Below are positions 13,206-53,880 of a stretch of DNA of 64,000 nucleotides, in pieces. The stretch is from the IMG/VR virus record IMGVR_UViG_3300001798_000006, positions 113,275-177,274 of that record, one strand, 5' to 3'. Position 1 is the first letter of the stretch. Each line of letters opens with the position of its first letter. Under the pieces are notes generated by a model. That model was not told where the DNA came from. It did not search any database and saw only the letters and a list, made by a program, of their open reading frames with translations. Source of the DNA: a virus. The translations under genes and the position numbers were made by a program.

Positions 13206-14449
13206 TGAAACTTTGTTTTATAGCTCCGCTACAGGATATGAGCGGATATGCGAATTTCTCACGTTTATTCCTAAAAACCCTTTTAAAGGGTGGTATTGAC
13301 GTTGTGGCTCGTGCATTAAAATATGATCAGTTAGACGACGCTTCTCAGTATAAAGAGGAGCCTTGGATTACAGAGGCCCTAAATAAGCCACTTGAGGGGA
13401 TAGACATGGTGCTCCAATGCACCACACCCAATATTGAGGCTCAGCCGAAGCCAGGTCTGCCAAACGGACTTATATTCTTCTGGGAAACTGACCGACTACC
13501 TCCTTTTTGGCTCTCTCAAATTGAGAAATTCGACTTTATTATAGTTCCGTGCCGTTTTAATGCCGAAATGTTAGTACACTGTGGCTGTACTAAGCCTATT
13601 TTAGTGATGCCGCCGCCATCTGACACAGACCTTTATAAAGAAGAAAGAGTTCCATACGAAATCCCTGGATCAGCCGGACGGACCATTTTTTATAATATTT
13701 CTCAGCTTTCTGCCAAAAAAGGTATTGATGCTCTTATTAGAGCATATTATGGAGCGTTCGCAGACCGGCCCGACGAGGTTTTATTGGTCTTAAAGACCTA
13801 TATTAGTATGTCTAATCGACAAAATGAACGCACGGTTATTGAGAACTTTATTCAGAAGATTAGGCAGGGGTGCCGCATTCCTATACAGAAGTATCCTCCT
13901 ATTCTGCCTATTACGCAAACTATGAGCGAAGCCGATATACACAAGCTTCATAAAGGGTGCCACGCCTATGTGAATGCTGGACGCGGCGAGGGGCACTGCA
14001 TTCCGGCGTTTGATGCATTGGGCCATGGTAATACTCTTATTTCGAGTAAAACAGGCGGCATGGCAGATTGGGTTGACGAAAACAACTCTATGGTGTATAA
14101 TGCTATTCGGACCAACGTATATGATATGCCTCACGGAGACCCGACAATATATACTGGCGTGGAGCAATGGTTTGAGCCTAGTACATCAGAAATGGGTCAC
14201 TTAATGCGAATGTATCATTTGCTTCGCAAGGGCAACGCTGACGGCGTGTTAGATTTTCAGTCTATGGACACCTGGAATAAAATTTCCCTTTTAAGGGAGA
14301 ATGGGTTAAAGTTGGTTGAGAAACGTGACTATAAAAATGTGGCAGATCGCCTTGTTGCTCAATTAAAAGCGGCTTATGATAGTTGGAAAACTAATGGGAA
14401 AGTTATTTTTGATCTTAAGGATGCAAGTGTTATGAAGGTTGGTGGCTAA
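13205..14449 (+). CDS. GT4-family glycosyltransferase
   Basis: A 414-residue GT-B glycosyltransferase. The N-terminal Rossmann half includes MSGYANFSRLFLKTLL. The C-terminal half includes FYNISQLSAKKGIDALIRAY, typical of GT4 donor domains. The donor-binding motif is GRGEGHCIPAFDALGHG (E-x7-D form). An ATG at 13205 with GAGGAG eight bases upstream is chosen over an in-frame GTG at 13196. The gene overlaps the previous glycosyltransferase stop and is followed at once by a homing endonuclease gene. Acceptor unknown. Confidence 0.85.
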   Translation: MKLCFIAPLQDMSGYANFSRLFLKTLLKGGIDVVARALKYDQLDDASQYKEEPWITEALNKPLEGIDMVLQCTTPNIEAQPKPGLPNGLIFFWETDRLPPFWLSQIEKFDFIIVPCRFNAEMLVHCGCTKPILVMPPPSDTDLYKEERVPYEIPGSAGRTIFYNISQLSAKKGIDALIRAYYGAFADRPDEVLLVLKTYISMSNRQNERTVIENFIQKIRQGCRIPIQKYPPILPITQTMSEADIHKLHKGCHAYVNAGRGEGHCIPAFDALGHGNTLISSKTGGMADWVDENNSMVYNAIRTNVYDMPHGDPTIYTGVEQWFEPSTSEMGHLMRMYHLLRKGNADGVLDFQSMDTWNKISLLRENGLKLVEKRDYKNVADRLVAQLKAAYDSWKTNGKVIFDLKDASVMKVGG

Positions 14450-15231
14450 TGGGATCTAATATTAATAGATGGACAGACCAGGAAATAATGATACTTAAGG
14501 AAAATTATGGCCAAATTCCACTTCCTGATATAGATATACCAGGGAGATCTTATCAGGCAAAACGTACTAGAGCTAGAATATTAGGACTGTATTCTGCGTT
14601 AAAAGGCCAGGGTAAAAGACAATATTCATGTAATGATAATTATTTTAATGTCCCTAATTTAGAAAACTCTTATTGGGCTGGTTTTATAGCTGCGGATGGA
14701 TGTATTATTAAAAATAGAAATTGTTTACAAATTTTATTATCTACAAAAGATTTGCAACATCTAAAGTTGTTTGCTCGATTAATTGAGTTTAATGGTCCTA
14801 TTAAGTTTGATAATTATGGGATGGCTATCTTAAGGATATATTCAAAACAAATTTGTCATGATCTAAAAAACAATTTTAATATTATAACTAATAAAACTTT
14901 AATATTAAAGCCGCCACCACTAAATGGAAATTTCGCTCTAGCCTTTATTAAAGGTTATATTGATGGTGATGGATGGATTTCTATAGCAAAGATTCAAAAT
15001 AAATATTCCTATTTAACAATAGGATTCATAGGGACGAGACAAGTTTTAAGATGGATTAAAAATACTTTATCGCAATATATTGGCCAAAAATTAATAAATA
15101 AAATTTTTAAACGTAAAAATAATCAATGTTATCAATTTTCTATAATGGGCTCTAATGCTACGGCTATATATCAGCATCTTGAGCCAATCATTAATATTGG
15201 ATTAAATAGAAAATGGAGCAAATATGTCTAA
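14449..15231 (+). CDS. free-standing LAGLIDADG homing endonuclease 1
   Basis: A 260-residue mobile endonuclease. The N-terminus (about 1-45) resembles a Myb/SANT-type DNA-binding helix set (RWTDQEIMILKENYGQ). Two LAGLIDADG motifs follow, YWAGFIAADG and FIKGYIDGDG. It begins on the last base of the glycosyltransferase stop (TAATG) and ends inside the next start, so it inserted without breaking either neighbour and is co-translated. It is more AT-rich than its neighbours, consistent with separate ancestry. It is a paralogue of the protein at 20929-21747. Confidence 0.88.
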   Translation: MGSNINRWTDQEIMILKENYGQIPLPDIDIPGRSYQAKRTRARILGLYSALKGQGKRQYSCNDNYFNVPNLENSYWAGFIAADGCIIKNRNCLQILLSTKDLQHLKLFARLIEFNGPIKFDNYGMAILRIYSKQICHDLKNNFNIITNKTLILKPPPLNGNFALAFIKGYIDGDGWISIAKIQNKYSYLTIGFIGTRQVLRWIKNTLSQYIGQKLINKIFKRKNNQCYQFSIMGSNATAIYQHLEPIINIGLNRKWSKYV

Positions 15232-16749: not shown

Positions 16750-17078
16750 TGAAAACTAACATTGTAACATATGATATCAGTCGTAAGAGAGATAGCGATC
16801 TTAAGACTATTGAATTAACTGACGTATTAAGAATTGTGTTGTTTCGTCATGATATATTAGAAATTATTATGAAGCCAACGGAGAGCGGCGTTGCTCATTA
16901 TCCTGATGTATTTTATATTTCACTTCAAAACGCTACCAACCGTGCTGTCTTTAGAACAAAAAAGCCTTGGTTGTTTAATCCGATTAAGAGACTTTATAAC
17001 GCTTTTAAAGTTAGGGCAATTTTGAGAAAGTGTGATTACGAAGCTTTGAGTAGTATATTATGTCCAAAGTATGAATAA
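16749..17078 (+). CDS. hypothetical protein
   Basis: A 109-residue protein with a basic middle (IKRLYNAFKVRAILRKC) and no recognised motif. The start is TAATG-coupled to the previous gene, and the stop lies inside the start of the Nudix gene. Expression with the glycan cluster is implied by coupling. Function unknown. Confidence 0.6.
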   Translation: MKTNIVTYDISRKRDSDLKTIELTDVLRIVLFRHDILEIIMKPTESGVAHYPDVFYISLQNATNRAVFRTKKPWLFNPIKRLYNAFKVRAILRKCDYEALSSILCPKYE

Positions 17079-17550
17079 CATGTATATATATAAATATCCT
17101 CGCTATAAAGTAACCTGTGATATGGCTATTGAACATCAGGGTAAGCTCTTAATAATTAAAAGAGGCCCCGGTCTCGAAGCTGGTAAATGGGCATTTCCGG
17201 GCGGTAATTTAGATCCAAACGAGACATGTATTGAATGTGCTTGTAGGGAAGTTTATGAGGAAGTAGGATATCAATATAATCCGGGTTATTGCGGTTTTAA
17301 ATTAGTGGGCATTTTTGATCGGCCGGACAGAGCCGAAGGCGATAGAGCAATTAGTATTCTATATTTTTCGCCATATAATATGCATGAAGAGTTTAAAGAC
17401 TGGTCACCATCAGAAGTAAAATTGGGCGACGATGCAGTAGATTATAAGTGGATTGCCGCCGATGAAATCGGCGGCATTGATTGGGCATTTGACTGCAAAG
17501 AAATGGCAGAGAAAGCGTTTGCACTATGCGAGTCCTATACGCGGGATTAA
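17071..17550 (+). CDS. Nudix hydrolase
   Basis: A 159-residue hydrolase of nucleoside diphosphates linked to another group. The Nudix box is complete: GGNLDPNETCIECACREVYEEVGY contains G-x5-E-x7-REV-x-EEVG (positions about 51-74). It is preceded by GKWAFPGG, as in family members that act on nucleotide sugars or mutagenic nucleotides. Position among glycosyltransferases suggests nucleotide-sugar (GDP-mannose mannosyl hydrolase-like) turnover, which is inference. A perfect 10-bp hairpin lies inside its 3' part. Confidence 0.9.
   Translation: MNNMYIYKYPRYKVTCDMAIEHQGKLLIIKRGPGLEAGKWAFPGGNLDPNETCIECACREVYEEVGYQYNPGYCGFKLVGIFDRPDRAEGDRAISILYFSPYNMHEEFKDWSPSEVKLGDDAVDYKWIAADEIGGIDWAFDCKEMAEKAFALCESYTRD
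17454..17476. repeat. perfect 10-bp hairpin with GAA loop in the Nudix gene
   Basis: TGCCGCCGAT pairs with ATCGGCGGCA across a GAA loop. It is GC-rich and fully inside coding sequence, where it encodes an AADEIGG segment. A GAA loop also closes smaller stems at 25532-25546 and 34473-34489. Confidence 0.88.
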
Positions 17551-18455
17551 TGTGGCACTATGGGATGCAAGAAAAAGGCACTTCGTATGAATATCGTCAT
17601 ATAGAGGCCGGCTTTAAACAATGTCAAGCCGAAGGTTTATTCGACGCTATGTATTGGCATCCCGACAATAACGAGTCCTTTCCGCAGGGAGGATATGACG
17701 CAATTTTTCATGTAGCTTTTAATGGGAATTATGATCTACCAGAAGCAGAAGCACTAAAAGCTTTGGCTAATGACATACCAGTTATTCAGTTTGATTGTGA
17801 TGCGTCTTTTCGGTTCCAAGACTGGATCTTGCCGCGTAAGCATCGGGTATCTCATTTTGTGACTACTCACAACAGTACAATTCCCTGGTATAAGTCTAAT
17901 GGCATGAATGTTATCAAGTCTCAGTGGGCTGGTTCTCCATTATACTATAAAGCAGAGACGGGCTATCAACCATTTGATACGAGCTTTCTTGGGCAGAGAC
18001 ATGGTATACGCGGGACAATCGTTTCCATGCTCATTCAAGCCGGTATTAAGGTACATTTATTTGGAGAATTCTGGGAAGGCTATCCAGATAGTAAGTGCGA
18101 ACTTTTAGAGTCCGACGATATGATTAAAGTGTTCCATCTATCAAAAATTAACTTGAATTTTTCAAATCCGTCTCAAGGTGGCTTGCCCCAAATTAAGGGG
18201 CGGCACGTAGATATACTGGCAGCCGGAGGATTTCAACTTTGTACTTCGGCTGATAATTTAGAGGAATATTTTGTTCCAAATAAGGAAATTGTTATTGTTA
18301 ATAGTATGCCAGAGATGCTTACAAAGATTAAATATTATTTGGAGCATGACGATGAACGCAACGCGATTGCCGAGGCTGGATATCAAAGGGTGCAAAAAGA
18401 GCACCTATGGAAGCATAGGTTGACAGCTATATTTCAAGAGGTCGGGTTATCGTAA
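17526..18455 (+). CDS. CgeB-like glycosyltransferase
   Basis: A 309-residue protein resembling the CgeB / Glycos_transf_1_2 group. The front reads RVLYAGLMWHYGM. The middle FDTSFLGQRHGIRGTIVSML matches the family's FVGSxxxxR segment, and HLSKINLNFSNPSQGG...QIKGRHVDILAAGGF is the typical IxxxxxNxRxFEIxAxGGF region. The end LEHDDERNAIAEAGYQRV is also characteristic. It overlaps the Nudix gene by 25 bases. A relative lies at 26040-26918. Confidence 0.8.
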   Translation: MRVLYAGLMWHYGMQEKGTSYEYRHIEAGFKQCQAEGLFDAMYWHPDNNESFPQGGYDAIFHVAFNGNYDLPEAEALKALANDIPVIQFDCDASFRFQDWILPRKHRVSHFVTTHNSTIPWYKSNGMNVIKSQWAGSPLYYKAETGYQPFDTSFLGQRHGIRGTIVSMLIQAGIKVHLFGEFWEGYPDSKCELLESDDMIKVFHLSKINLNFSNPSQGGLPQIKGRHVDILAAGGFQLCTSADNLEEYFVPNKEIVIVNSMPEMLTKIKYYLEHDDERNAIAEAGYQRVQKEHLWKHRLTAIFQEVGLS

Positions 18456-19054
18456 TGAGCATCTTACTTAATATCATTAACGAGTATGGCCCGATGATCT
18501 TTTATGGCGACAAGATAGTAGATATTAAGAGTCATCTTGGATATTTCGATGTAATTTATCCTGGCTCATTTAATCCTCCCCACAGAGCACATCTTTTAAT
18601 GGCAAAAGATGCACTCCCAGAGATTTGTATCAATCATTATTTTAAGGGGCCATTGGACCCGATGGATGTTTATCATAGAATTAAAATGTGGGAGCTATGT
18701 AATAAGCCGGTCCTGGTGACTGCCGCAAAAACATGTGCCGAGAAGGATCAGCTTTTAAAATCTCTTAAACCACAAAAGCAATTTACTTATAGAATTAGCT
18801 CAGACGTTATGAACGAATGCACCCGAGAGGGAGCATGGATGTTTGGTGAACAATGCTCTTTTATGTTCGATATAGTTATTAGGGAAGGAATCCCGCTTGA
18901 GGAGAATGATTGCCTACGGCAACTTAAGTATAGAGTTAATACCGACATAGTGACGCCTCCTGCACGTAGCACTAAAATTCGTGAAGGTGATTATGGATAT
19001 TTGCCAGATCCGGTAGCTAAATATATTGCGGAGCATAAATTATATGTGTCCTAA
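18455..19054 (+). CDS. nucleotidyltransferase, NadD/NMNAT-like
   Basis: A 199-residue protein with the cytidylyltransferase-superfamily signature YPGSFNPPHRAH (G-x-F-x-P-x-H-x-x-H form) near residue 35, and near the C-terminus PPARSTKIREG, which corresponds to the ISSTxIR motif of nicotinate and nicotinamide mononucleotide adenylyltransferases. It could make NAD, or activate another phosphorylated compound for the glycan pathway. The central part (Cys-rich, about 70-130) is divergent. It is TAATG-coupled to the preceding gene. Confidence 0.72.
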   Translation: MSILLNIINEYGPMIFYGDKIVDIKSHLGYFDVIYPGSFNPPHRAHLLMAKDALPEICINHYFKGPLDPMDVYHRIKMWELCNKPVLVTAAKTCAEKDQLLKSLKPQKQFTYRISSDVMNECTREGAWMFGEQCSFMFDIVIREGIPLEENDCLRQLKYRVNTDIVTPPARSTKIREGDYGYLPDPVAKYIAEHKLYVS

Positions 19055-19871
19055 AATATCATACTTAGTATCAACTTATAATACGCCATCATTTCTTGAC
19101 AAGCACATTCCTGATTTATTATATAATCAGACAGATCCAAATTTCGAGATAATAGTAATTAATCCCACGTCGCCTTCTTACGACGGTGACGTGGCTGACA
19201 AGTGGGTAAAAAAGGATAGCCGCGTGCGACTACTAACTACTCCAGATTATGGTAGTTATGGATCAGCGTGGTTAAATGGATGGAAAATAGCAGAAGGCGA
19301 ATATATAGTTAATAGTAATGTAGACGATAGCCATTTTCCAAGATTTACAGAAGTGTTTTATAATACTATGCAAACCCTTAGCTTGCGATCAGATGCTCCA
19401 TATTGGTTTTGTTATGCTGGCTGGCAAGTTGTTGATAAAAATGGCAATCTTATGCATCAGGCATTGAAGCCACCTTTTAATTATGAGCGATTTAAATATG
19501 AGTGTACTGCTGGACCACAAGTTTGTTGGAGCAATAGTTTAGAATTTAAAGCTGTTTTAGATTGGGATCTGATGTGGAAGCGTGCATTGGAACATCAATC
19601 AGCTTGGGATTATTGGGCTTGGTTATACTTCTTAAATATTGGTGCTAAAGGATATACTATTCCTGAAATATTGACTATTTATATGCAGAGGGTCGATTCT
19701 ATTGAGAATAGAAGCCCACAGAAAAATACATTCGAGGCATTATCTTCGATAGCAGAATTCTTTCCTAACTCACTTCCTAGTGAATTTCCAGAGTTTAAAG
19801 ATTTTAATAATTTGCCTCCAAAGGAGGAATGGATAGCTAAACGGAAGAAAGGCGAAGCGTGGACAAAATAA
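19044..19871 (+). CDS. glycosyltransferase family 2 (GT-A)
   Basis: A 275-residue GT2 enzyme. It starts MCPKISYLVSTYNTPSFL, then FEIIVINPTS, then AEGEYIVNSNVDDSHFPRF, whose NVDD provides the DxD metal site. An ATG at 19044, with GCGGAG ten bases before it, is preferred to the TTG at 19026. It overlaps the upstream gene by 11 bases. The C-terminal half has several Trp residues, possibly acceptor-contacting. Confidence 0.82.
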   Translation: MCPKISYLVSTYNTPSFLDKHIPDLLYNQTDPNFEIIVINPTSPSYDGDVADKWVKKDSRVRLLTTPDYGSYGSAWLNGWKIAEGEYIVNSNVDDSHFPRFTEVFYNTMQTLSLRSDAPYWFCYAGWQVVDKNGNLMHQALKPPFNYERFKYECTAGPQVCWSNSLEFKAVLDWDLMWKRALEHQSAWDYWAWLYFLNIGAKGYTIPEILTIYMQRVDSIENRSPQKNTFEALSSIAEFFPNSLPSEFPEFKDFNNLPPKEEWIAKRKKGEAWTK

Positions 19872-20932
19872 AAGTTTGCCTATATCTTAGTAATATGGGA
19901 CTTGGCGGAACAGAGAAGTCTGCACTTTTATGTTTTAGAGGAATTGATAAGTCAAAATTTGATGTTACTTTTGTTACACTAGGTAAAAAGACAGACCCTC
20001 GTTACATGGAATTTTTAAGTGCCTTCGGCACTAAGATGTTTATGGTCGCTTCAAAAGAGGAAGCCGCAGCTAAGCTCAATGAGATAAACCCAGATATAGT
20101 TCAGGTTTATAGGAGCGGATTCCATGAGTTCCCTGTGCCCGGACAGGACATTCACCCAAAAGTGTTCTGTGAAGTGAATGTTTTCGGACAATTAGACCAA
20201 AATCCATTAGTTACTAAATCACTTTTCATGAGTCAGTGGCTAATGAACGATACATTGGCTAAATACCCACAATTTAAATTCATGCGGCCAGACCGTTGGG
20301 ATTATTTAAATAATCCAGTAGATAGGCCATACTCAGCCGAGAAACTGGATTTAGGAGTGTCAGAAGGTACTATTGTTTTGGGCAGATGCGGCCGTGCTGA
20401 CGATGGGATTTATGACGATATAGCAGTCAAGGCCGCATATATAGCTAAGAGCATGGGCGTTAATCTATTTTATTTAGTAGTGGCCCCACCGCCACGAATG
20501 ATTGAGGATCTTGAAAAATATAATATTGCTTACAAAGCAATCGAGCCAACGGTAGATCCGTTTATATTAAGTAAGTTTTATAATACGGTGGATATTTATT
20601 GTCACGCCAGAGCAGATGGTGAGACCGGAGGGAATACAATTCATGAAGCGTTTATACATAGAAAGCCGGTAATCACGCATATAGCTGTTCCTAGTTATCC
20701 TGGAATGGGCGTGTTTCAAGCACAGATAGAGGCTGTGAATGATAATATTAATGGCTTTGTGGTAGATCATAATTCACGAAATTATGCCGACGCTATTATT
20801 AAACTTGCTAATGATAAAGAATTAAGAAATAAAATGGGAAATATGGGATATAATAAAGTGCTAAATAATTGTCATACGCCTGTTAGCGTCAGAAAATTAG
20901 AAGCGATATATCTTACATTAATAGGAAAATGA
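19859..20932 (+). CDS. GT4-family glycosyltransferase
   Basis: A 357-residue GT-B enzyme beginning with a GTG codon. The start KVCLYLSNMGLGGTEKSAL is the standard GT4 acceptor-domain opening (GGxE). The C-terminal domain has VLGRCGRADDGIYDDIAVKA and HARADGETGGNTIHEAFIHRKPVI, which holds the E-x7-E motif. It overlaps the GT2 gene before it by 13 bases and the homing endonuclease after it by 4. It is similar in layout to the protein at 22848-23933. Confidence 0.85.
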   Translation: MDKIKVCLYLSNMGLGGTEKSALLCFRGIDKSKFDVTFVTLGKKTDPRYMEFLSAFGTKMFMVASKEEAAAKLNEINPDIVQVYRSGFHEFPVPGQDIHPKVFCEVNVFGQLDQNPLVTKSLFMSQWLMNDTLAKYPQFKFMRPDRWDYLNNPVDRPYSAEKLDLGVSEGTIVLGRCGRADDGIYDDIAVKAAYIAKSMGVNLFYLVVAPPPRMIEDLEKYNIAYKAIEPTVDPFILSKFYNTVDIYCHARADGETGGNTIHEAFIHRKPVITHIAVPSYPGMGVFQAQIEAVNDNINGFVVDHNSRNYADAIIKLANDKELRNKMGNMGYNKVLNNCHTPVSVRKLEAIYLTLIGK

Positions 20933-21747
20933 ATATCTATAAATTTTGGACCCAGGAAGAAGATCAGTTTTTATTAACAAATTACCCATCATATTCCAAT
21001 AAACAACTATCTGTTCAATTAGGTAGATCTATAGGCTCTATACAATGTCGTGGAAGATTTTTAAATTTAAATAAAATCTCTATAAGAAAATATCATACTA
21101 ATATAGATTATTTTCACATACCAAATATTAACAATTGTTATTGGGCAGGTCTGTTAGCGGCAGATGGTTGTATTTGGAAGCGTGGCGATGCTGTTGAAAT
21201 AGGATTGCAAGAGAAAGACAAATATCTATTAGAGCAATTTGCACAGGCTGTTAATTATGATGGTAAAATAGAACTTCGCAAAACTAAACCAGGGTTTCAG
21301 ACTAACCAAAAACAATATAGAATTATATTTTATGGGGTACAACAATGGGTCAAAGATTTAAAAGATAATTTTAATATTACGCCATGTAAATCACTTAATT
21401 TTACTCATCCTAACCAACTAACGAGAGATCAGGAATTGTCTTTTATTAAGGGTTACATTGACGGCGATGGATGTGTTTATTGTAATAATAAAGATATTGT
21501 TTTAGCTATTACTGGTACTGAATCTACTTTAAATTGGATTAAGTTTATTTTTGATACCATAGTTCCTTCTTCTAACTGTTCGGTATCTAGCGTTAGAAAA
21601 TATGGTGACGAAAATTGCTTTGAATATAGGATTAATAGTAATAGGGTGATGAATATATACAAGATATTAAAAACCATTATTCCTCATGGACTACATAGAA
21701 AGTGGGATAAATTAGAACGTATTTATATGGAGCTTGCTAGTGGATAA
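20929..21747 (+). CDS. free-standing LAGLIDADG homing endonuclease 2
   Basis: A 272-residue mobile endonuclease with an N-terminal Myb/SANT-like domain (KFWTQEEDQFLLTNYPSYSN) and two LAGLIDADG motifs, YWAGLLAADG and FIKGYIDGDG. The same architecture and motif spacing as the protein at 14449-15231 mark them as paralogues. It starts at an ATGA overlap with the preceding glycosyltransferase and overlaps the next start, again an insertion that preserves translational coupling. Target probably lies at the flanking gene junction; this is inference. Confidence 0.88.
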   Translation: MNIYKFWTQEEDQFLLTNYPSYSNKQLSVQLGRSIGSIQCRGRFLNLNKISIRKYHTNIDYFHIPNINNCYWAGLLAADGCIWKRGDAVEIGLQEKDKYLLEQFAQAVNYDGKIELRKTKPGFQTNQKQYRIIFYGVQQWVKDLKDNFNITPCKSLNFTHPNQLTRDQELSFIKGYIDGDGCVYCNNKDIVLAITGTESTLNWIKFIFDTIVPSSNCSVSSVRKYGDENCFEYRINSNRVMNIYKILKTIIPHGLHRKWDKLERIYMELASG

Positions 21748-22858
21748 TATTATATTAAAACATCCTATTAGACACGACACTTATACCGAGGCAGTATCTA
21801 AGTTTTACGATCTCGCGAAGCAAGATGAATCTGTTACTACAATTAAAAATAATATTCAATTGCCAACATCAGCGTGGAATGTTGGAGTTATTTACGGGTC
21901 TTCTGGTACTGGTAAAACAACGCTATTAAAAACCTTCGGCAAAATTATTAAGCCGTCTTGGAACAACGAGGCAATAGTATCTAATTTTTCTCCTATCGCT
22001 CCACAAGAAGTTTTCGCATTATTAAGTGCAGTAGGATTATCAACAGTCCCCGCATGGCTCAGACCATATACTTACTTAAGTAATGGCGAACAGTTTAGAG
22101 CGGACCTAGCTCGTGTAGTAATGCAAAATAATGATCCTATTTTAATAGACGAATTTACTTCTGTGGTGGATAGAAACGTAGCTAAGTCTGCATCATATGC
22201 ACTTGCGAAGTATATACGTAAACAGAACAAAAAAGTTATTGTGGCGTCATGTCACAATGATATCTTAGAATGGTTAGAGCCGGACTGGATTTATAATCCT
22301 GTTAGTGGAGAGACATATTATCCAAGGGGGAGTCTTTGTAGACCCAAACTGGATCTTGAAATCTTTCGTTGTAAGTATGCAGCGTGGGAATATTTTAAAT
22401 CGCATCACTATTTAAGTGAGACTTTAAATAAAGCGGCCAGGTGTTTCATGTGTACTTGGAATGATGTTCCGGTAGGTTTTATAGCCATACTCGCTTTGCC
22501 ACATCCGAAATTAAAAAATGCATGGCGAGCCACTAGGATGGTTGTGTTGCCAGATTATCAGGGGCTTGGCTTTGGCGGTAAATTAGCAGATTATATGGGG
22601 AGTCTTATCAAGGCAAGAAATGGGCTATTTTATCGTAGAATAGCTCATCCTGCCGTGATCTCCTACAATAGGAAACATAATGACCTTTGGGCAGAGATTG
22701 GAGCCAAATCTACTAAATTTAGTGAAACATCTAAGTTACTTAGTGGGAGTAATCAAAACGGTGCCTGGTTACAAAAACTTAATAGAGATACTGTTGGATT
22801 TAAATATATAGGGCCAGCAGCTTCTTTTGAAGAAAGTAGATTATTCTATGAAGGTTAG
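21740..22858 (+). CDS. ABC-type ATPase fused to a GNAT acetyltransferase
   Basis: A 372-residue two-domain protein. The ATPase half has Walker A GSSGTGKT (about 53-60), a C-loop LSNGEQFRADLARVV (about 113), Walker B PILIDEFTS and an H-loop ASCHND, all in ABC order. The C-terminal half has FIAILALPHPK and MVVLPDYQGLGFGGKL, the acetyl-CoA binding loop of GNAT enzymes. The architecture matches the group known as COG2401 (ABC ATPase fused to predicted acetyltransferase). Start GTG 21740 has GGAG 7 bases upstream. There are no membrane segments, so it is not a transporter. Substrate unknown. Confidence 0.85.
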   Translation: MDNIILKHPIRHDTYTEAVSKFYDLAKQDESVTTIKNNIQLPTSAWNVGVIYGSSGTGKTTLLKTFGKIIKPSWNNEAIVSNFSPIAPQEVFALLSAVGLSTVPAWLRPYTYLSNGEQFRADLARVVMQNNDPILIDEFTSVVDRNVAKSASYALAKYIRKQNKKVIVASCHNDILEWLEPDWIYNPVSGETYYPRGSLCRPKLDLEIFRCKYAAWEYFKSHHYLSETLNKAARCFMCTWNDVPVGFIAILALPHPKLKNAWRATRMVVLPDYQGLGFGGKLADYMGSLIKARNGLFYRRIAHPAVISYNRKHNDLWAEIGAKSTKFSETSKLLSGSNQNGAWLQKLNRDTVGFKYIGPAASFEESRLFYEG

Positions 22859-23933
22859 GGTGTTACATCTAGCAAAAACAGCAGGGTATGCTGGTACGGA
22901 AAAAGTCGCTCAAACGTTTTGCAAGTATCTGGGTAAAAGTCAAAGATATGAGCCATTTTATCTTTATCAGGATTCTGGAGATAAATCTCGATTAAGTGAG
23001 ATATCCAAATTCTTGGACGCGGAGCATCTAATTGAATATCACCATAAGCATCAGATAAACCCTCCGTCACCTTATTGGCCAGAAGAAGATAACTTTCAAG
23101 CTACGCTCGAAAAAATAAAGCCAGACATCATACATATTCATAGAGCGGGGATTCGTGAATGGCCGCTCATCCAAGGGGTTATCCCACCAGGAATTAAAGT
23201 TGTAGAACATTGTATTTTTGGCCATGTGGACCATAGTTATAAAGTCGATTGCCGCATTTATATCTGCAATTATATTAAGAATAAGTCTATGGCGTATGGA
23301 GGTCCAGATGGTCCAGTATTGTGGAATCCGGTAGAGCCACGCCTTTGGTCATCTTATGATCGCACTCCCTTTTTAAGGGAGTATAATTTACCTGAAAATG
23401 CAATATTATTAGGCAGAGTTGGCAGACCAGATAACTTTGACCCGATAAGCCTAAAGGCTTTTCGGGTCATTGAAAATAAGTATCCAAATGTTTATTATTT
23501 AGTGGTCAACCCGTGTGACCAATGGCGAAGAGTTACTGCCGAGTTAAATTTAAAGCATGTTATTTTTTTAGATAAGATTGTTGAGGATATGGAACTATCT
23601 AGATTTTATAGTTCAATAAACATACTAGCTCATTGCCGACATGACGGGGAAGTGTGTCCAACTAATATATTAGAGGCTATGGCTCATTGTTTACCTGTTG
23701 TCTCTCATAAGAGTAGGATATACAACGGGCACCTTGAAATACTGGCCGGATGTGGTATAGTAGTACCAATAGACGATCATGTAGCATACGCCTCATGTTT
23801 GGAAGAGTTAATTAATAATAAACCCCTTAGAGGGGACTTGGGCATCAAGTCCTATAATAAATGGCTGCATAATTCATATGCACTTAACGTAACACAACAA
23901 CTAGAGACAATTTATGATGGACTCGGTATTTGA
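22848..23933 (+). CDS. GT4-family glycosyltransferase
   Basis: A 361-residue GT-B enzyme. It starts MKVRVLHLAKTAGYAGTEKV (GGTE-type loop) and carries LLGRVGRPDNFDPISLKAF, then CRHDGEVCPTNILEAMAHCL, whose E...E spacing fits the donor-sugar motif. The ATG at 22848 overlaps the ABC-GNAT stop by 11 bases; an earlier TTG is less likely. Its gene contains two perfect 8-bp hairpins (23364-23382 and 23438-23469). Confidence 0.84.
   Translation: MKVRVLHLAKTAGYAGTEKVAQTFCKYLGKSQRYEPFYLYQDSGDKSRLSEISKFLDAEHLIEYHHKHQINPPSPYWPEEDNFQATLEKIKPDIIHIHRAGIREWPLIQGVIPPGIKVVEHCIFGHVDHSYKVDCRIYICNYIKNKSMAYGGPDGPVLWNPVEPRLWSSYDRTPFLREYNLPENAILLGRVGRPDNFDPISLKAFRVIENKYPNVYYLVVNPCDQWRRVTAELNLKHVIFLDKIVEDMELSRFYSSINILAHCRHDGEVCPTNILEAMAHCLPVVSHKSRIYNGHLEILAGCGIVVPIDDHVAYASCLEELINNKPLRGDLGIKSYNKWLHNSYALNVTQQLETIYDGLGI
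23438..23469. repeat. two-tier hairpin inside a glycosyltransferase gene
   Basis: An outer 8-bp stem TGACCCGA/TCGGGTCA encloses, after one unpaired base each side, an inner 6-bp stem AAGCCT/AGGCTT. Fully coding. No tract of T follows, so it does not look like a terminator. Confidence 0.8.
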
Positions 23934-24168
23934 TACGGCTATACTGGCTGTTAAAATGGAACTTATTAACTTTCTTGGAGAGAAGGGGTTTGGTTGGTTT
24001 GCCGACTTTGCCGACGTGGATTGTTGTATGACTGAATCTAGTGTGACAATAAATTATAAAGATAAAAATATACCGAAAGCTGTCGCTGAGTTTGCAAAAA
24101 CTCACAAAATGTTTGTTGCTATGCATGATACATCTCTAGGACGCATCACTATAGAAAGGTTAGTTTAA
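23914..24168 (+). CDS. small hypothetical protein
   Basis: An 84-residue protein (MMDSVFDTAILAVKMEL... ) overlapping the previous glycosyltransferase by 20 bases and ending one base before the next gene. An alpha-beta pattern with CCMTESSVTINYKD is visible but no family. Conserved coupling within the glycan cluster suggests it is real. Confidence 0.6.
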   Translation: MMDSVFDTAILAVKMELINFLGEKGFGWFADFADVDCCMTESSVTINYKDKNIPKAVAEFAKTHKMFVAMHDTSLGRITIERLV

Positions 24169-24169
24169 A

Positions 24170-25162
24170 ATGAAGATAGCCATCGTTACAGAAGCAATAG
24201 CAGATTATGTATCTGGTGGCTTACAGCATACTATTTATGTTTTAAATGAGCTTAAAAAGTTAGGCCATGATGTATGTTGTTTTGTAAAGCATCCACCATA
24301 TCAAAGTCTGTGGCTACATGCAGATTTTCCAATATATCCTATCGGCAGTAATATATGGGAAGAGTATGACGGTATTTTAGTTTGCATATTCTCACCTGTG
24401 GCGGAATTAGTGGCTACTCATAAAAACTCTCAGGATAGATTCTTTCTCGTACACGCGAATGAGGGACTCTTCACTTACAATGGGCAAGAGTGGACAAAAA
24501 GAGCTATAGATTCATATAAGTTGCCACTGAAATTAATGTGTGTTTCAAGCTATCTCCAAATATTAATGGAGCAAGTTTATAATCGTAACGTTATTGGTCT
24601 GACTGTGCCACCTGGCGTAGACGATAATATTTTTAATGATATTGGTAGAACAGAATATGATGGTGGAATACTTAATATTGCCATTTTTAATCGAGGAGGC
24701 TGGATTAGAGGGGTTGATACTGCCTTACAGGCAGTTAATGGGCTAGATCCTAAAAAATTTAAAATAAATGTTATTCCAGATGGCGTTCGAGATCGTAAAC
24801 TTGTAGCTAATATTTTTAAGCAATCACACGTTTATATAGACGCGAGCCGACTGGCGGGAAGCCCTACAATTCCAAAGGAAGCTATGATTTGCGGCTGCAT
24901 ACCTATCTGCACTTACTATGGAGCCGTGGATTATATTTTAAGTGGCTATAATGGCTTTATTATTCCACCAGACAATATGTTCGCTATAACTAATACAGTT
25001 AAGTTTTTATCAGAAGATCCAGAATTAGTGAGGCAAATATCTCAGAATGCTATCGAATACTGTGAGAGATTTACCTGGGATAAAATTGCTCAAAGGATGG
25101 TATTTGCGATTAATGAAGGTTTATTGAGGATGGACCTATTAGAGACTAAGGTTTGGAGGTAA
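24170..25162 (+). CDS. GT4-family glycosyltransferase
   Basis: A 330-residue GT-B enzyme. The acceptor half starts KIAIVTEAIADYVSGGLQHT, typical of GT4. The donor half has IAIFNRGGWIRGVDTALQAV and DASRLAGSPTIPKEAMICG, where the S-P-x-x-x-x-E segment occupies the usual E-x7-E position, so the first Glu is replaced. That is an unusual donor motif, not necessarily inactive. The end contains RFTWDKIAQRM, common in this family. Confidence 0.8.
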   Translation: MKIAIVTEAIADYVSGGLQHTIYVLNELKKLGHDVCCFVKHPPYQSLWLHADFPIYPIGSNIWEEYDGILVCIFSPVAELVATHKNSQDRFFLVHANEGLFTYNGQEWTKRAIDSYKLPLKLMCVSSYLQILMEQVYNRNVIGLTVPPGVDDNIFNDIGRTEYDGGILNIAIFNRGGWIRGVDTALQAVNGLDPKKFKINVIPDGVRDRKLVANIFKQSHVYIDASRLAGSPTIPKEAMICGCIPICTYYGAVDYILSGYNGFIIPPDNMFAITNTVKFLSEDPELVRQISQNAIEYCERFTWDKIAQRMVFAINEGLLRMDLLETKVWR

Positions 25163-25165
25163 AAA

Positions 25166-25357
25166 ATGCTTATCAAGTCTATATCTTGCGGCTGCATTTT
25201 ATGCGAAGAACATCCATTTCTTCCGAGATTATGTAATGATCATGATAGATTGTTTCGTGAAAAAACAAGAATAGAAAATGTGAACTCTCAACTTAAGAGA
25301 GTAATTCAAAAATTATGGATCAGGACGAACGTGTGCTCTCATTATCAGGGGATATAA
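25166..25357 (+). CDS. small Cys/His-rich protein
   Basis: A 63-residue protein with SCGCILCEEH, LCNDHD and CSH motifs that could coordinate zinc, plus a helical middle. It fills the space between two clustered genes with 3-base gaps or fewer and has GGAGG just before its ATG. Function unknown. Confidence 0.6.
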   Translation: MLIKSISCGCILCEEHPFLPRLCNDHDRLFREKTRIENVNSQLKRVIQKLWIRTNVCSHYQGI

Positions 25358-26074
25358 ATGGCTAATCCAGACAAGTTTCTATCTTTATTCCCAGGTATAG
25401 AATATAATGCGGCTCAAAGAGCCTTATTTGAGCAGAAGTGCAACCAACATTTTATAGATGTGGCACAAAAATCCGGTGGCTGGAGTTGTGAGGCCCTTTG
25501 TGGCCTCATTAACATTGCTGTAACAGAATGCCTCGCCGAAGGCGAGCAGTATTTGGAGATAGGCACTTTTTGTGGGCGTAGCCTAGTCGGTGCTCTTTAT
25601 CAGAATAATGCTAAGGCACAAGTAATTGATAATTTTTGTGATGGAGATAAGGTGTTAGCCGGATGGAATCAGGCCGTAGACGATTTCTCGCTGCGTGGTA
25701 GAATTACATTACATAAGATAGCGTGCGAGGAGTTTATTGGCGGTTTACCGCCAATTGGGGTTTTCTTCTATGATGGAAATCATGATTCTGGGCATACTTA
25801 TGAGGGACTTAAAAAGTATGAGCAGTATCTCGCCGATCAGGCGATAATTATCGTAGATGACTTAGAAATATTTGGTGGTGGCCAACAAAGAATATTTCCG
25901 GGCCATACTCTAGAGCTTTGCCTCCCGGTGAAGCGAGATGTTGATCGTTGGATTAAAGAGAATCTTGAAAAAGTGACATTACTTGGAGTTACCCCTTGGG
26001 GAAGTAAACAGGCCGTGATGCTTTATGAAAGGAATAAAAATGCGGGTACTAGTCTCGTACCGAGGCTCACCTAA
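25358..26074 (+). CDS. class I SAM-dependent methyltransferase-like protein
   Basis: A 238-residue protein of the Methyltransf_24 type. The SAM-binding strand is YLEIGTFCGRSLVGAL. VIDNFCDGD follows as the second acidic strand, and VFFYDGNHDSGHTYEGL is the motif-IV region with paired acidic residues and histidines common in sugar and macrolide O-methyltransferases. Its position among glycosyltransferases suggests O-methylation of a glycan; the substrate is inferred. A perfect 8-bp hairpin with a TTTA loop lies at 25736-25755. Confidence 0.78.
   Translation: MANPDKFLSLFPGIEYNAAQRALFEQKCNQHFIDVAQKSGGWSCEALCGLINIAVTECLAEGEQYLEIGTFCGRSLVGALYQNNAKAQVIDNFCDGDKVLAGWNQAVDDFSLRGRITLHKIACEEFIGGLPPIGVFFYDGNHDSGHTYEGLKKYEQYLADQAIIIVDDLEIFGGGQQRIFPGHTLELCLPVKRDVDRWIKENLEKVTLLGVTPWGSKQAVMLYERNKNAGTSLVPRLT
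25736..25755. repeat. perfect 8-bp hairpin inside the methyltransferase gene
   Basis: ATTGGCGG pairs with CCGCCAAT across a TTTA loop. Wholly coding, part of the window-wide hairpin set. Confidence 0.8.
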
Positions 26075-26918
26075 TATTAGAGGTTTTGAGACAGGGCACC
26101 TAATCTCAGAAGCATTTCGTGAACTTGGCCATGAAGTCTTTGAATATGGCAATATATATGAAAGTAATGATTTAATAGGACCAGGCTTCCGTGAATTATA
26201 TGGTCATTATAAGTTTCAGCCGGACCTGTGGTTGGCGATGGAAACAAACGATGCTGAAAATTCAATTATTCAGCCCAAATATCTTAATCCTAAAAAGATA
26301 GCCTACTGGTGCTTCGATATAAGCATGTATCCAGAGCATTGTAAGCAATATGCCGAGTCTATTGATGCGGCACATGTGTTTTGTGCTAATCCTAACTATT
26401 TGCGGCTCTTTAAAGCCGCATCGTTCCTTCCATACGCAGCGGCTCCACAGTTTATTAGGCCACTTAACTTTGCGAAGCAATATGATGTCGGCCTAGTTGG
26501 CTCCGACCGACCAGAAAGACAAGCACTTATCGCGGATCTTCGAGCCGCAAATATTAATGCACACTTGATAACAGGGGTATTCCGCGAAGCGTATATTGAT
26601 GCACTCGCGTCCTGTAAAATCGTGATCAATGATATTGCTGGCGGCGGAAAAGGATTAATGTCAATGCGTGGCCTAGAGGCTCCTGCTGCCGGATCGTTAA
26701 CTATTTTTGAGGACGCAGAAGCATTGGGCGACTTATTTATTCCGGGCATAGACTGCTTAACTTATCAAGATTCAAAGGATTTAATTGCAAAATGCGATAG
26801 TCTCTTAAGAGATCAACAATATTTAGATCAGGTTAGAGCCGCTGGTCAGAAGAGAGTGCTGGAAAATCATATGTATGTGCATCGAGCACAAGAAATATTG
26901 GACGTGATAGGATATTAA
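26040..26918 (+). CDS. CgeB-like glycosyltransferase
   Basis: A 292-residue relative of the CgeB / Glycos_transf_1_2 group. Visible are YDVGLVGSDRPERQALIADL (the family's FVGS segment), CKIVINDIAGGGKGLMSMRGLEAPAAGS (the N-x-R-x-x-E-x-x-A-x-G core) and SLLRDQQYLDQVRAAGQKRV near the C-terminus. The ATG at 26040, preceded by AAAGG, is preferred to 26025. It overlaps the methyltransferase gene by 35 bases. Confidence 0.8.
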   Translation: MRVLVSYRGSPNIRGFETGHLISEAFRELGHEVFEYGNIYESNDLIGPGFRELYGHYKFQPDLWLAMETNDAENSIIQPKYLNPKKIAYWCFDISMYPEHCKQYAESIDAAHVFCANPNYLRLFKAASFLPYAAAPQFIRPLNFAKQYDVGLVGSDRPERQALIADLRAANINAHLITGVFREAYIDALASCKIVINDIAGGGKGLMSMRGLEAPAAGSLTIFEDAEALGDLFIPGIDCLTYQDSKDLIAKCDSLLRDQQYLDQVRAAGQKRVLENHMYVHRAQEILDVIGY

Positions 26919-27604
26919 TGGATAAAATAAGCGTCCTAATTTGCTGCCATTCGCAAGACATAATACATGATCGTTTATTAGAGAGATCGCTGAGTTCATT
27001 AATGCGTCAAACTTATCAACCGGACGAGATTATCTTAATATTAGATGAATGCCACTCTGATACGATAGATATGTTAGGAAACTTACAATATTATGACTGG
27101 CGTGATACAGATAGTCTTAAAATATATGAGAGACCAAGAAAACTTGGGCTTGCGGATGCTAAAAATTACGGGCTTCAAAAATGTAATTATGATTATGTGG
27201 CATATCAAGACGCTGATGATGCTAGTCTAGTATGTCGGCTAGAGTTACAAAGAAATTTTTTATTACAACATCCAGATATAGATATGTTATTTACCGAATG
27301 CTTCGACGTATATAATCCAGGGGAAATAAACGAAGTTTGGTATCCTAATTGCTTTAAAGTAGGTCAATATAAGACTCATGAACAAATATCTGAACGCATT
27401 AAGTATGAGAACGTATTAGCTCACGGGAGTTTATTAGGAAAAAAATCTGTACTCTTAAGTAATGGCGGATATGATACAGACAAACGATATCTCGGGCGGG
27501 AAGATTGGAAAAAGTGGTATGATTTAATAACGGCTGGATACAAGTTTCATAAATTAGACGAGCGGTTATATTTATATTCGATGCATACTGGAGTAGAAAG
27601 GTAA
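26918..27604 (+). CDS. glycosyltransferase family 2 (GT-A)
   Basis: A 228-residue GT2 enzyme with the full N-terminal pattern: ISVLICCHSQ, SLSSLMRQTYQPDEIILI, KLGLADAKNYGL, and YVAYQDADDASL, where QDADD holds the metal-binding DxD. The end has YLGREDWKKWYDL, the usual catalytic ED region. Start is TAATG-coupled to the previous glycosyltransferase. Confidence 0.86.
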   Translation: MDKISVLICCHSQDIIHDRLLERSLSSLMRQTYQPDEIILILDECHSDTIDMLGNLQYYDWRDTDSLKIYERPRKLGLADAKNYGLQKCNYDYVAYQDADDASLVCRLELQRNFLLQHPDIDMLFTECFDVYNPGEINEVWYPNCFKVGQYKTHEQISERIKYENVLAHGSLLGKKSVLLSNGGYDTDKRYLGREDWKKWYDLITAGYKFHKLDERLYLYSMHTGVER

Positions 27605-27606
27605 CT

Positions 27607-27825
27607 ATGACATATAAAAATCAATATACTAATGGTTATTGTCTTAAAAATAATAAAGAAGTTGCATTATATTTTGTTGGATTTGATGGTCCTGTTCAAC
27701 CAACAGGAGTATTTTGGAATTGTCCAGATTGTGGTATATTAGCTTCATCAGATGATGCTGCTAAACATATTTGGAATCCTAGTCATTATTTACTGGAGAA
27801 ATTAAATGAGACGAAAAGAACCTAA
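27607..27825 (+). CDS. small zinc-finger-like protein
   Basis: A 72-residue protein with WNCPDCGILASSDDAAKHIWNPSH, a C-x2-C followed by histidines that could form a single zinc finger. The rest is tyrosine-rich. It overlaps the next gene by 20 bases. Function unknown. Confidence 0.6.
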   Translation: MTYKNQYTNGYCLKNNKEVALYFVGFDGPVQPTGVFWNCPDCGILASSDDAAKHIWNPSHYLLEKLNETKRT

Positions 27826-28099
27826 TCCGTTACCGGATTTTAATTTAATAAAGCCACCACCAAGTAATTTGCCATCCAAAAGAGAGATTGTCGAATTATT
27901 ACTTTCTCGGGAACGATTTCAAGAACTAGTGAAGGAATTCAAAGAGATTAGAGATTGGTATGGGCCAGAATGGCGTGAGCATGGGTCTATTGGAGGCTCA
28001 GAAGCAGATAGTGGCTTTACTCAAGAGAGTGTGCCAAAATTAATTAAAATTATTGAGGAGCTAATAAATGTTACAGATTATACCAACTCGCCGCATTAA
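27806..28099 (+). CDS. hypothetical protein
   Basis: A 97-residue protein with a proline-rich start (NPLPDFNLIKPPPSNLP) and a charged helical rest (ERFQELVKEFKEIRDWYG). It overlaps genes on both sides, by 20 and 32 bases. No recognised family. Confidence 0.55.
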   Translation: MRRKEPNPLPDFNLIKPPPSNLPSKREIVELLLSRERFQELVKEFKEIRDWYGPEWREHGSIGGSEADSGFTQESVPKLIKIIEELINVTDYTNSPH

Positions 28100-28769
28100 C
28101 CTATATGGTGGTCCAGGTTCGGGTAAAAGCACTACTGCGGCATGGCTTTTTGCAGCCCTTAAAGATAAGGGACTTCATGTCGAACTTGTAAATGAGTACG
28201 TAAAGTCTTGGGCTCATACTGGTCGTAAAGTATCAGGCTTCGATCAACTGTATTTACTTGGTAAGCAGATTCACTATGAAGATAGGCTTTTAAAGAATGG
28301 CGTTGATCTTATTGTTACAGATAGCCCTATTTGGTTATCACCTTTCTATGCTTCGCTTTACAGCGAGGTTAATATAGTTAAACCGCTGATGGAGATTTGC
28401 CGTGAATTTGACTCTTGTTATTCTGGCATGGATATATTTCTTAATCGTGAAGGTCGTCCATATAATCCAAAAGGCCGCTACCAATCGGAAGATGAATCTA
28501 AAGATATCGACAAAAAACTGATTGAATTTTTGCGAAGCAATAAGTACAATAGTTCTTACGAACCAAAGTCATTTAAGAACGATGAACGTGAGGCGTTACT
28601 AGATTGGGTGGAAAATAGTGTTAATTTGGTCCCGCGTTCGGGTATAGTACGAATTACATATATTTCTAACGAAGAAACTATTATGAAGAGCGATTTAGGC
28701 GAGGCTGGAAGACGCTCTGGTTATATAGATTTTGCTGGTAACTGGCATGATGATGGAAAAATTTCATAA
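28068..28769 (+). CDS. P-loop AAA-type ATPase / kinase-like protein
   Basis: A 233-residue P-loop protein. Walker A is YGGPGSGKSTTAAWLF (about 13-28), followed by VELVNEYVKSW and LIVTDSPIWLSPFY, a pattern seen in NadR-like and deoxynucleotide-kinase-like phage ATPases. It may phosphorylate a nucleotide or nucleoside. The C-terminal 40 residues (IMKSDLGEAGRRSG...) are unassigned. Family level only. Confidence 0.7.
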   Translation: MLQIIPTRRINLYGGPGSGKSTTAAWLFAALKDKGLHVELVNEYVKSWAHTGRKVSGFDQLYLLGKQIHYEDRLLKNGVDLIVTDSPIWLSPFYASLYSEVNIVKPLMEICREFDSCYSGMDIFLNREGRPYNPKGRYQSEDESKDIDKKLIEFLRSNKYNSSYEPKSFKNDEREALLDWVENSVNLVPRSGIVRITYISNEETIMKSDLGEAGRRSGYIDFAGNWHDDGKIS

Positions 28770-28779
28770 GAGGGTGAAT

Positions 28780-29025
28780 ATGAGCGATTTAGAATTTTGT
28801 CAACAAGCTATTAAGCGTGGCAATATTTGGAAGATTAAAGTTAGAGATTTTACATATTATGGTTTGCCACATGATGGGGAAAAGTCTATTAATGAACTAG
28901 GATTGAGTCACGGTATCCTCAATCTATTAAGCCCAAATAAGCCGGAGGAAAAATATCCTATATGCTGGATGGGGATATCATATTTTCGGGAAAATGCTAG
29001 AGAGTTGGTAGAACGTGAATTATAA
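28780..29025 (+). CDS. small hypothetical protein
   Basis: An 81-residue protein (MSDLEFCQQAIKRG...). The ATG at 28780 is chosen for its AGAGGGTG ribosome site; an upstream ATG at 28732 would overlap the ATPase gene without a site. It overlaps the next methyltransferase by 11 bases. No motif recognised. Confidence 0.6.
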   Translation: MSDLEFCQQAIKRGNIWKIKVRDFTYYGLPHDGEKSINELGLSHGILNLLSPNKPEEKYPICWMGISYFRENARELVEREL

Positions 29026-29668
29026 AGACAGAAAAGATACCCACGATTATTTTACACCTGAACACGTTCAGGTGTTTTTAAGAAATCACCGTACTGGGCT
29101 GGATAATCAAGGTCGGCAGTATCTTGGTCATATTGTTAAGTTATATGGTACTGGACCAGAAGTTAAATTTCTAGATATTGCCTGTTGTACCGGGACTACA
29201 TTTGAAACCATAAAACTTATGGGGCTCAATATATCTTACACGGGTATTGATCGTACTAAGCAATTTCTAGCACATGCCAGAAACCTCTATAAGGATTATC
29301 AGCCGCGACCAGAGTTTTTAGAAGGCTACGCACAGGAATTGCCATTTAAAGATGGTGAGTTTGATTTAGTATGTATTAGGCACTTGTTAGAGCACTTACC
29401 AGATGGTTACGAAGCCGCTATCAAAGAAGCCGTGCGGGTTGCCTCAAAAGAAGCAATCATAGTGTTCTTTTTAGAGCCGCATAGCGGCTCAGAGGATATT
29501 ATTAAGGAAGAGGGACCAGACGAGCGTGGATGTACTTATTATTGGAACAATTACTCTAGGTCGAAGTTATTAAAGTTTCTAAGCCAGTTTGGCTGTCAAA
29601 TTAAAGTAGAGCGTGTAGAGACCCCTGGTGCGGCCCATGCAGACCTAATCATTAGGCTGATCAAATGA
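29015..29668 (+). CDS. class I SAM-dependent methyltransferase
   Basis: A 217-residue Methyltransf_11-type enzyme with a GTG start. Motif I is FLDIACCTGTTFETIK, motif II YTGIDRTKQF, and motif IV FKDGEFDLVCIRHLLEHL, the UbiE/methyltransferase-11 signature. Likely acts on a small molecule or sugar. Its gene carries a 10-bp palindrome (29054-29075) and a 7-bp hairpin (29474-29490). Confidence 0.85.
   Translation: MNYKDRKDTHDYFTPEHVQVFLRNHRTGLDNQGRQYLGHIVKLYGTGPEVKFLDIACCTGTTFETIKLMGLNISYTGIDRTKQFLAHARNLYKDYQPRPEFLEGYAQELPFKDGEFDLVCIRHLLEHLPDGYEAAIKEAVRVASKEAIIVFFLEPHSGSEDIIKEEGPDERGCTYYWNNYSRSKLLKFLSQFGCQIKVERVETPGAAHADLIIRLIK
29054..29075. repeat. perfect 10-bp palindrome in a methyltransferase gene
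   Basis: ACACCTGAAC pairs with GTTCAGGTGT around two central bases. Coding position, near the 5' end of the gene. Confidence 0.85.
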
Positions 29669-29751
29669 CAGAAAAACGGCGACTGGATTTACTAGATTTC
29701 ATGTTTGATTTGTTATGTATAGAGGCAGTAATTTTATTACTGACGATATAA
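29665..29751 (+). CDS. tiny membrane-like peptide gene
   Basis: A 28-residue frame. Its ATG overlaps the methyltransferase stop (ATGA) and its TAA overlaps the next start (TAATG), the coupling used by genuine genes in this window. The peptide has a charged front (TEKRRLD) and a hydrophobic end (CIEAVILLLTI) compatible with a short membrane helix. It may be a true micropeptide or just a translational bridge that keeps ribosomes moving through the operon. Confidence 0.45.
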   Translation: MTEKRRLDLLDFMFDLLCIEAVILLLTI

Positions 29752-30446
29752 TGGACTTTACCTTCGGCATCATAACTTCTGGCAACGAACATAAGCGTAT
29801 CATAGATATTATAAGTAGTATTAGGTTTGAGCTACCTTATGGTAGTTATGAAATAATAGTAGTCGGGGGCGACCAATTAATATCTCTTGGTATAAAGTGG
29901 TATGAATTTGATGAGACTATTAAACCTAACCATATCACCAAAAAGAAGAATCTCGTCGCTCAATTAGCGACGAGAGAGAATATAGTGCTCATGCATGATT
30001 ATGTAGCTCTCCAACCTGGTTGGTTCCAAGGCTTTGAAAGATTCGGTAACGACTGGCTTACCTGCACTAATAAAATTCAGAATTTAGATGGTTCGAGATT
30101 CAGAGATTTTTGTGTAATTGCTAATGACGCCTGGACCGATTATAAAGATTCAGCTACGCCAAACTTTACTGGGGATGGACGCCTATTAGATTATAGCCGC
30201 AAAGATTATAATGGCTATGTAAGGTGGGGATATTATTCCGGGGCCTACTTCCTGGCTAAACGCCAAGTATTATTAGAGGTTCCATTAGACGAAGAAAGAG
30301 TTTGGTCGCAGGGCGAGGACGTAAAAATTTCGCGAGATATCTATTTCAAGTACGGAGCGAAGGCTCTAGCTTTTAACCCATATGCAACAGTTAAACTTTT
30401 AAAGCAAAAAGAGAGGGCTCCATGGGAGAATATGCCGCCTATTTAG
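29751..30446 (+). CDS. GT2-like glycosyltransferase
   Basis: A 231-residue protein with GT-A features: FTFGIITSGNE at the start, YEIIVVGGDQ, KKKNLVAQLATRENIVLMHD in place of the DxD strand, and a C-terminal GYYSGAYFLAKRQVL...WSQGEDVKIS that matches the acceptor/ED region of GT2 enzymes. The ATG at 29751 overlaps the micropeptide stop. The earlier in-frame start at 29715 is less likely. A perfect 10-bp hairpin is inside. Confidence 0.74.
   Translation: MDFTFGIITSGNEHKRIIDIISSIRFELPYGSYEIIVVGGDQLISLGIKWYEFDETIKPNHITKKKNLVAQLATRENIVLMHDYVALQPGWFQGFERFGNDWLTCTNKIQNLDGSRFRDFCVIANDAWTDYKDSATPNFTGDGRLLDYSRKDYNGYVRWGYYSGAYFLAKRQVLLEVPLDEERVWSQGEDVKISRDIYFKYGAKALAFNPYATVKLLKQKERAPWENMPPI
29951..29975. 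repeat. perfect 10-bp hairpin in a GT2-like gene
   Basis: TCTCGTCGCT pairs with AGCGACGAGA across a CAATT loop. Wholly coding. Confidence 0.88.
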
Positions 30447-31153: not shown

Positions 31154-31159
31154 GTAATT

Positions 31160-33173: not shown

Positions 33174-33175
33174 TT

Positions 33176-36372: not shown

Positions 36373-36374
36373 TT

Positions 36375-53490: not shown

Positions 53491-53522
53491 TGCCAAAACC
53501 TTATGCAGTGTGGAGTGGGATA

Positions 53523-53879: not shown

Positions 53880-53880
53880 T

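Follow-up and report, generated by a model that had tools for sequence, protein, structure and literature searches.

TmcA couples an ATPase to a GNAT domain and acetylates the exocyclic base amine of tRNA cytidine, and the Mom protein of phage Mu is a member of the GNAT superfamily. That an ABC ATPase joined to a GNAT domain modifies DNA is a prediction reportedly first made by Iyer et al. in 2013 and restated in 2021. In the restatement, the ABC ATPase–GNAT fusion is predicted to be a DNA-base acylating system, and Tenacibaculum phage pT24 is given as an example (Iyer et al. 2021; PMC7824862). We found in the literature searched no experiment on this family and no report of a modified base in any carrier. 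Mu-like phages of Bacteroidota usually carry a DNA-modification gene as one of their last ORFs (PMC7761591).

Here we analyze one such fusion in a viral DNA stretch of 64,000 nucleotides (hereafter the window; positions 113,275 to 177,274 of IMG/VR record IMGVR_UViG_3300001798_000006). A sequence-only reading had described its architecture as resembling COG2401 and as having no well-established function. The latter holds as far as experiment goes, and the literature we searched made no mention of COG2401; what the reading missed is the prediction of DNA-base acylation (PMC7824862). The family is already known as a prediction and the window protein is an additional member, so that what our survey contributes is further support for DNA as the target. 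We consider the window protein to be probably, if far from certainly, a phage DNA-base acyltransferase that serves anti-restriction.

The ABC ATPase–GNAT protein

The gene occupies 21740–22858 of the window and is assigned by Pfam, the phrog profile (phrog_11143), and an AlphaFold2 model; it and all of the features in this section are on the plus strand. As read from the sequence, it starts with GTG, encodes 372 aa, and is preceded by a Shine-Dalgarno-like GGAG (21729–21732) that lies 7 bases 5′ of the start. A TTG at 21734 lacks such spacing from the GGAG.

The N-terminal ABC ATPase domain (approximately residues 1–200; 21740–22339) is supported by Pfam PF00005 and the model, and in the PDB its fold matches ABC nucleotide-binding domains. 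A complete set of ABC motifs had been claimed for it, and all of them were found. Walker A is GSSGTGKTT (residues 53–61; 21896–21922), with G53, S55, G56, G58, and K59 invariant in 80 aligned sequences, and the ABC signature is LSNGEQ (residues 113–118; 22076–22093), with L113, S114, and G116 invariant in the same alignment. The segment ILIDEFTS (residues 134–141; 22139–22162; D137, E138, and S141 invariant across the 80) comprises Walker B, ILIDEF (134–139), with its catalytic Glu, and the start of the D-loop, SVVDR (141–145). The H-loop segment is SCHND (residues 170–174; 22247–22261), in which C171, the H-loop His172, and D174 are invariant, again in all 80 sequences.

The C-terminal GNAT domain (residues 203–372; 22346–22855) is supported by Pfam PF00583 and PF13508, by a model of this half alone (pLDDT 88.7), and by PDB fold matches, those shown being acetyltransferases of GNAT fold. 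After its first helix comes the loop HHYL (residues 222–225; 22403–22414), which likely forms a wall of the acceptor site; H223 and Y224 are invariant in the 80 sequences. The acetyl-CoA pyrophosphate loop QGLGFG (residues 274–279; 22559–22576) satisfies the GNAT pattern Q/RxxGxG/A, with Q274 and G275 invariant and G277 and G279 conserved in at least 90%. Taking the two domains together, the residues invariant in the alignment of 80 include K59, S114, G116, D137, E138, H172, H223, Y224, R266, Q274, and G275.

Both Pfam matches exceed the gathering cut-off (ABC_tran 2.1e-8, Acetyltransf_1 9.6e-7), and the AlphaFold2 model of the whole protein has two folded domains (pLDDT 90.8, pTM 0.84). Both halves, the ATPase and the acyltransferase, are intact and their catalytic motifs are invariant. 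The C-terminal GNAT domain with an acetyl-CoA loop was therefore correctly recognized in the sequence-only reading. Structure prediction, which it had proposed as a check, gave a confident two-domain model, and a broken acetyl-CoA site, which would have spoken against its interpretation, is not what the model and the alignment of 80 contain.

Several relatives bear the annotation “ABC transporter” or “hemin importer,” and it had been considered that the fusion might occur only as a known transporter component. We rejected such a role: there is no hydrophobic segment, and all transporter NCBIfam scores fall far below cut-off. The absence of membrane segments from the window protein, noted earlier, is borne out by hydropathy (top 19-residue Kyte-Doolittle mean 1.6), and, in the relatives' neighborhoods examined, no gene is annotated as a separate permease. 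The relatives are not transporter parts despite the annotations.

Among solved GNAT structures, those nearest in fold include protein N-acetyltransferases (e.g., RimI), so the fold does not show the acceptor. One alternative is that the GNAT half acetylates a host protein (RNA polymerase or a defense protein) for takeover and that the ABC half acts as a switch or docking part. The canonical, RimI-like fold would suit this, and there is precedent in phage GNATs that act on host proteins, with such a role proposed for those of the Rac kind (Iyer et al. 2021; PMC7824862). Nevertheless, we judge host-protein acetylation unlikely, because neither the conserved ParB partner nor the mom slot described below would be expected from it.

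Relatives and their neighboring genes

The window protein matches phrog_11143, which has no assigned function, at full length (6.5e-116; residues 3–362 against profile positions 2–354 of 357). A scan of viral contigs with a single protein query gave no matches; the relatives came from alignment-based scans, which placed them in at least 591 viral-contig stretches and in 499 stretches of bacterial and archaeal genomes. Many of the genome-borne relatives adjoin terminase genes and thus are probably in prophages. Relatives are also present in 77 named phage records (some matched through the ATPase only), the two closest being those of Nonlabens phage P12024S (44.6% identity over 96%) and Tenacibaculum phage pT24 (45.6%). 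The fusion that had been described is a single ORF of 372 aa in the window, and in several relatives (several firmicute phages and pT24) the halves are two adjacent ORFs. In the record used for pT24, these are the split ORFs BAV39160.1 and BAV39159.1, and the published accession QAX98348.1 was not matched to them. A 175-kb contig binned as an archaeon encodes a 50% identical ABC–GNAT; this may be a misbinned phage contig.

Many prophages and phages have, directly upstream of ABC–GNAT, a gene of one and the same cluster, and from this cluster we built a profile; the protein is ParB-like. With this profile, ParB-like genes were located no more than 400 bp upstream of ABC–GNAT at 58 of the 80 genome loci, at 13 of the 23 phage or plasmid loci, and at 9 of the 80 viral loci, the last set having been ranked by similarity to the window and hence dominated by the window's ParB-less clade. 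Nearly all of the 104 ParB ORFs are on the same strand as ABC–GNAT (103) and upstream of it (102), and 49 overlap it; in one case, ParB, ABC, and GNAT form a single fusion protein. The module matches phrog_498 (4.4e-54) and PADLOC MTase_II (5.6e-41, profile positions 14–153 of 436). It is found at the N-termini of phage DNA methyltransferases as well as upstream of ABC–GNAT, and thus a DNA-methylation module serves ABC–GNAT also.

The window protein lies elsewhere in the family. A tree of 126 rows places it within a 47-row clade (98% SH-aLRT) to which the ParB-linked clades are sisters, and none of the 47 members has an adjacent ParB or formyltransferase gene. No conserved functional partner was found in this clade, just common replication and recombination genes. 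Likewise, a search of the whole 177-kb viral record found no ParB-like gene and no formyltransferase.

If ParB were instead a partner or an antitoxin, ABC–GNAT could be a toxin or an inter-phage weapon. There are toxins of the GNAT type, and one of the fold matches is AtaT. However, no antitoxin-like small gene adjoins ABC–GNAT in the window, the ParB of the relatives is a methyltransferase-type module, and PADLOC gives weak ATPase matches only (e.g., mad3), such that a toxin or weapon is the most improbable of the roles we considered. A PADLOC defense role was rejected on those weak ATPase matches. The broader idea of the sequence-only reading, that the gene is useful cargo in phage conflict, is plausible.

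Two Mu-like phages of Porphyromonas offer a direct comparison with mom. The tail genes of phage008a (L011) are followed, as the last genes, by ABC–GNAT and a formyltransferase, whereas phage012a (L186) ends with Mom (PF25680, 5.9e-56). The backbones of the two are 83–88% identical up to base 4826 of L186, and mom starts at 4827. This swap in the mom slot is the strongest single argument for a mom-like job of ABC–GNAT, and, as one pair, it counts as one event. It should be noted that Aeromonas phage PX29 (GU396103) has a Mom homologue (36309–36881) together with an ABC–GNAT gene (53356–54255), and thus the two are not simple substitutes for each other. Membership of the window protein in the Mom family was tried and rejected, as there was no PF25680 match at E values up to 10, against 5.9e-56 for the Mom control. 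Profile–profile comparison of the GNAT half with Mom was not significant (P 0.095 and 0.5).

The formyltransferase of phage008a belongs to a wider pattern: a 5-row clade (100% SH-aLRT) has an adjacent formyltransferase, confirmed by PF00551 for four. In the formyltransferases of L011, L012, L008, and L021, the histidine of HPSxLP is kept, the usual active-site asparagine is replaced by Gly or Ile, and the active-site aspartate is kept in most. Known formyltransferases of the same fold (PurN, Fmt, and ArnA) act on primary amines. By analogy, the adjacent gene suggests an amine-bearing intermediate, and it is because of this preference for primary amines that we propose it could be aminoacyl.

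Genes around the fusion in the window

Directly upstream of ABC–GNAT, as the sequence-only reading had it, is a homing endonuclease gene of the LAGLIDADG type (20929–21747, plus strand; PF14528, LAGLIDADG_3, 3.3e-9) that overlaps the ABC–GNAT start by 8 bases. With a G+C of 0.30 versus 0.38 in its neighbors, it is probably an unrelated mobile gene. A second free-standing LAGLIDADG endonuclease (14449–15231) is also located among glycosyltransferase genes, and at 10338–13205 a glycosyltransferase-like gene, an unusual intein host, is split in frame by an intein with a LAGLIDADG endonuclease (PF14890, PF14528).

From 17071 to 36000 there is a long same-strand run of glycosyltransferase, methyltransferase, HAD hydrolase, and GDP-mannose dehydratase/epimerase genes, flanked by replication genes on one side and a ribonucleotide reductase gene on the other. 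A lone tRNA-Met (CAT) is encoded just past the latter (42359–42428). The ABC–GNAT gene is on the same strand as the helicase, primase, and Pol III alpha genes, and downstream of them.

The glycan-locus setting is thus as had been described, with many glycosyltransferase and sugar-nucleotide genes around the fusion. Its position within a run of glycosyltransferase, methyltransferase, and GDP-sugar genes would be natural for a glycan or sugar-nucleotide N-acetyltransferase that serves the surrounding glycosyltransferases. The relatives point elsewhere: their neighbors are ParB, terminase, primase, helicase, and recombination genes, or the gene is at the right end of Mu-like phages. No glycosyltransferase is among the annotated neighbors of the relatives examined, nor was one seen by eye among the immediate neighbors of the three nearest viral relatives. 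The family is associated with DNA-handling genes, and canonical sugar acetyltransferases have no need of an ABC ATPase. Accordingly, the glycan link that had been drawn finds no support, a sugar acetyltransferase is very improbable, and the glycan setting of the window gene looks incidental.

The acceptor could also be RNA, with ATP-dependent acetylation of a tRNA base in the manner of TmcA. The GNAT half has TmcA (2zpa) as one of its fold matches (rank 50, E 7.9e-6), and in sequence it weakly matches RNA cytidine acetyltransferases (E 0.06 and 0.17). On the other hand, tRNA genes occur in 7 of 58 loci, even with partial predictions counted, and none is within 19 kb of the gene in the window; the ParB and terminase neighbors point to DNA; and the ABC fold differs from the helicase-type ATPase of TmcA. 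We therefore regard RNA as quite an unlikely substrate.

A predicted acyltransferase of DNA and its described counterparts

For a DNA-base acyltransferase, the evidence comprises the ParB partnership, the phage mom slot, the formyltransferase clade, the published prediction, and the nearby replication genes. Against it are the lack of ParB and formyltransferase genes in the window's clade, the lack of Mom membership, and PX29, with both genes. For the window's clade, assignment to DNA follows from homology and from position near replication genes, and we infer that what is seen in the ParB-linked relatives extends to it.

We further infer DNA as the substrate, and with it the base, the acyl group, and the role of ATP. 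The ABC half would bind ATP, in all likelihood by dimerizing through its Walker A and signature faces, and would clamp or remodel DNA so as to present a base to the GNAT half. The GNAT half would take an acyl (or aminoacyl) group from acyl-CoA and place it on an exocyclic amine of the base, and the phage genome, once modified, would escape host restriction.

A more specific and rather doubtful proposal is that the family performs ATP-gated DNA hypermodification, addressed by ParB in many members and with new chemistry. GNAT would attach an aminoacyl group (e.g., glycyl) to an exocyclic amine of the base; in one clade, the primary amine so created would then be capped by the formyltransferase, in the way that PurN acts on glycinamide. 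Aminoacylation followed by formyl capping, if true, would be a two-step base modification, and to our knowledge none of this kind has been described before.

The hypermodifications of phage DNA, which involve much unknown chemistry, protect it from restriction and from some nucleases. The family is large, extending over hundreds of viral contigs and probable prophages of planctomycetes, actinomycetes, and others, and the base-acylation prediction is directly testable with cultured phage isolates that carry the gene, among them Nonlabens P12024S, the Gordonia phages Jace and Ligma, Leptospira biflexa phage LE4, and Lactococcus P335. If true, an ATP-driven acyl mark would join the known DNA modifications, and an explanation would be at hand for many genes that at present carry transporter or importer annotations.

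Closest to the window protein are the other members of phrog_11143, which include Nonlabens P12024S gene 24 and a Leptospira LE4 protein annotated “GNAT family N-acetyltransferase,” whose model superimposes on that of the window protein with a TM of 0.80; the window protein differs in belonging to the ParB-less clade. The ABC ATPase–GNAT system of Iyer et al. has the same two domains, and the coupling of an ABC ATPase with this GNAT subfamily on which it depends is found here, both in the domain architecture and in the 45.6% identity to its example, pT24. In the ParB-fused phage DNA methyltransferases (phrog_498, PADLOC MTase_II), the N-terminus is the ParB-like module of the relatives' upstream gene, but the catalytic half is a methyltransferase where the relatives have ABC–GNAT.

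Mom of phage Mu (PF25680) is, by analogy, the functional counterpart of ABC–GNAT. Sister Mu-like phages have Mom and ABC–GNAT in a common slot, and the HY motif of Mom, KHYS, aligns with HHYL here, not significantly and as a lead only. However, Mom is without the ABC half, and nothing in the Mom alignment corresponds to the CoA loop QGLGFG of the window protein. TmcA and NAT10, the RNA cytidine acetyltransferases, have ATPase and GNAT in one protein, as here, but their ATPase is of helicase type and their substrate is RNA. Their likeness to the window protein is at superfamily level only, and TmcA may be viewed as the nearest mechanistic analogue of ABC–GNAT, with no kinship beyond the superfamily.
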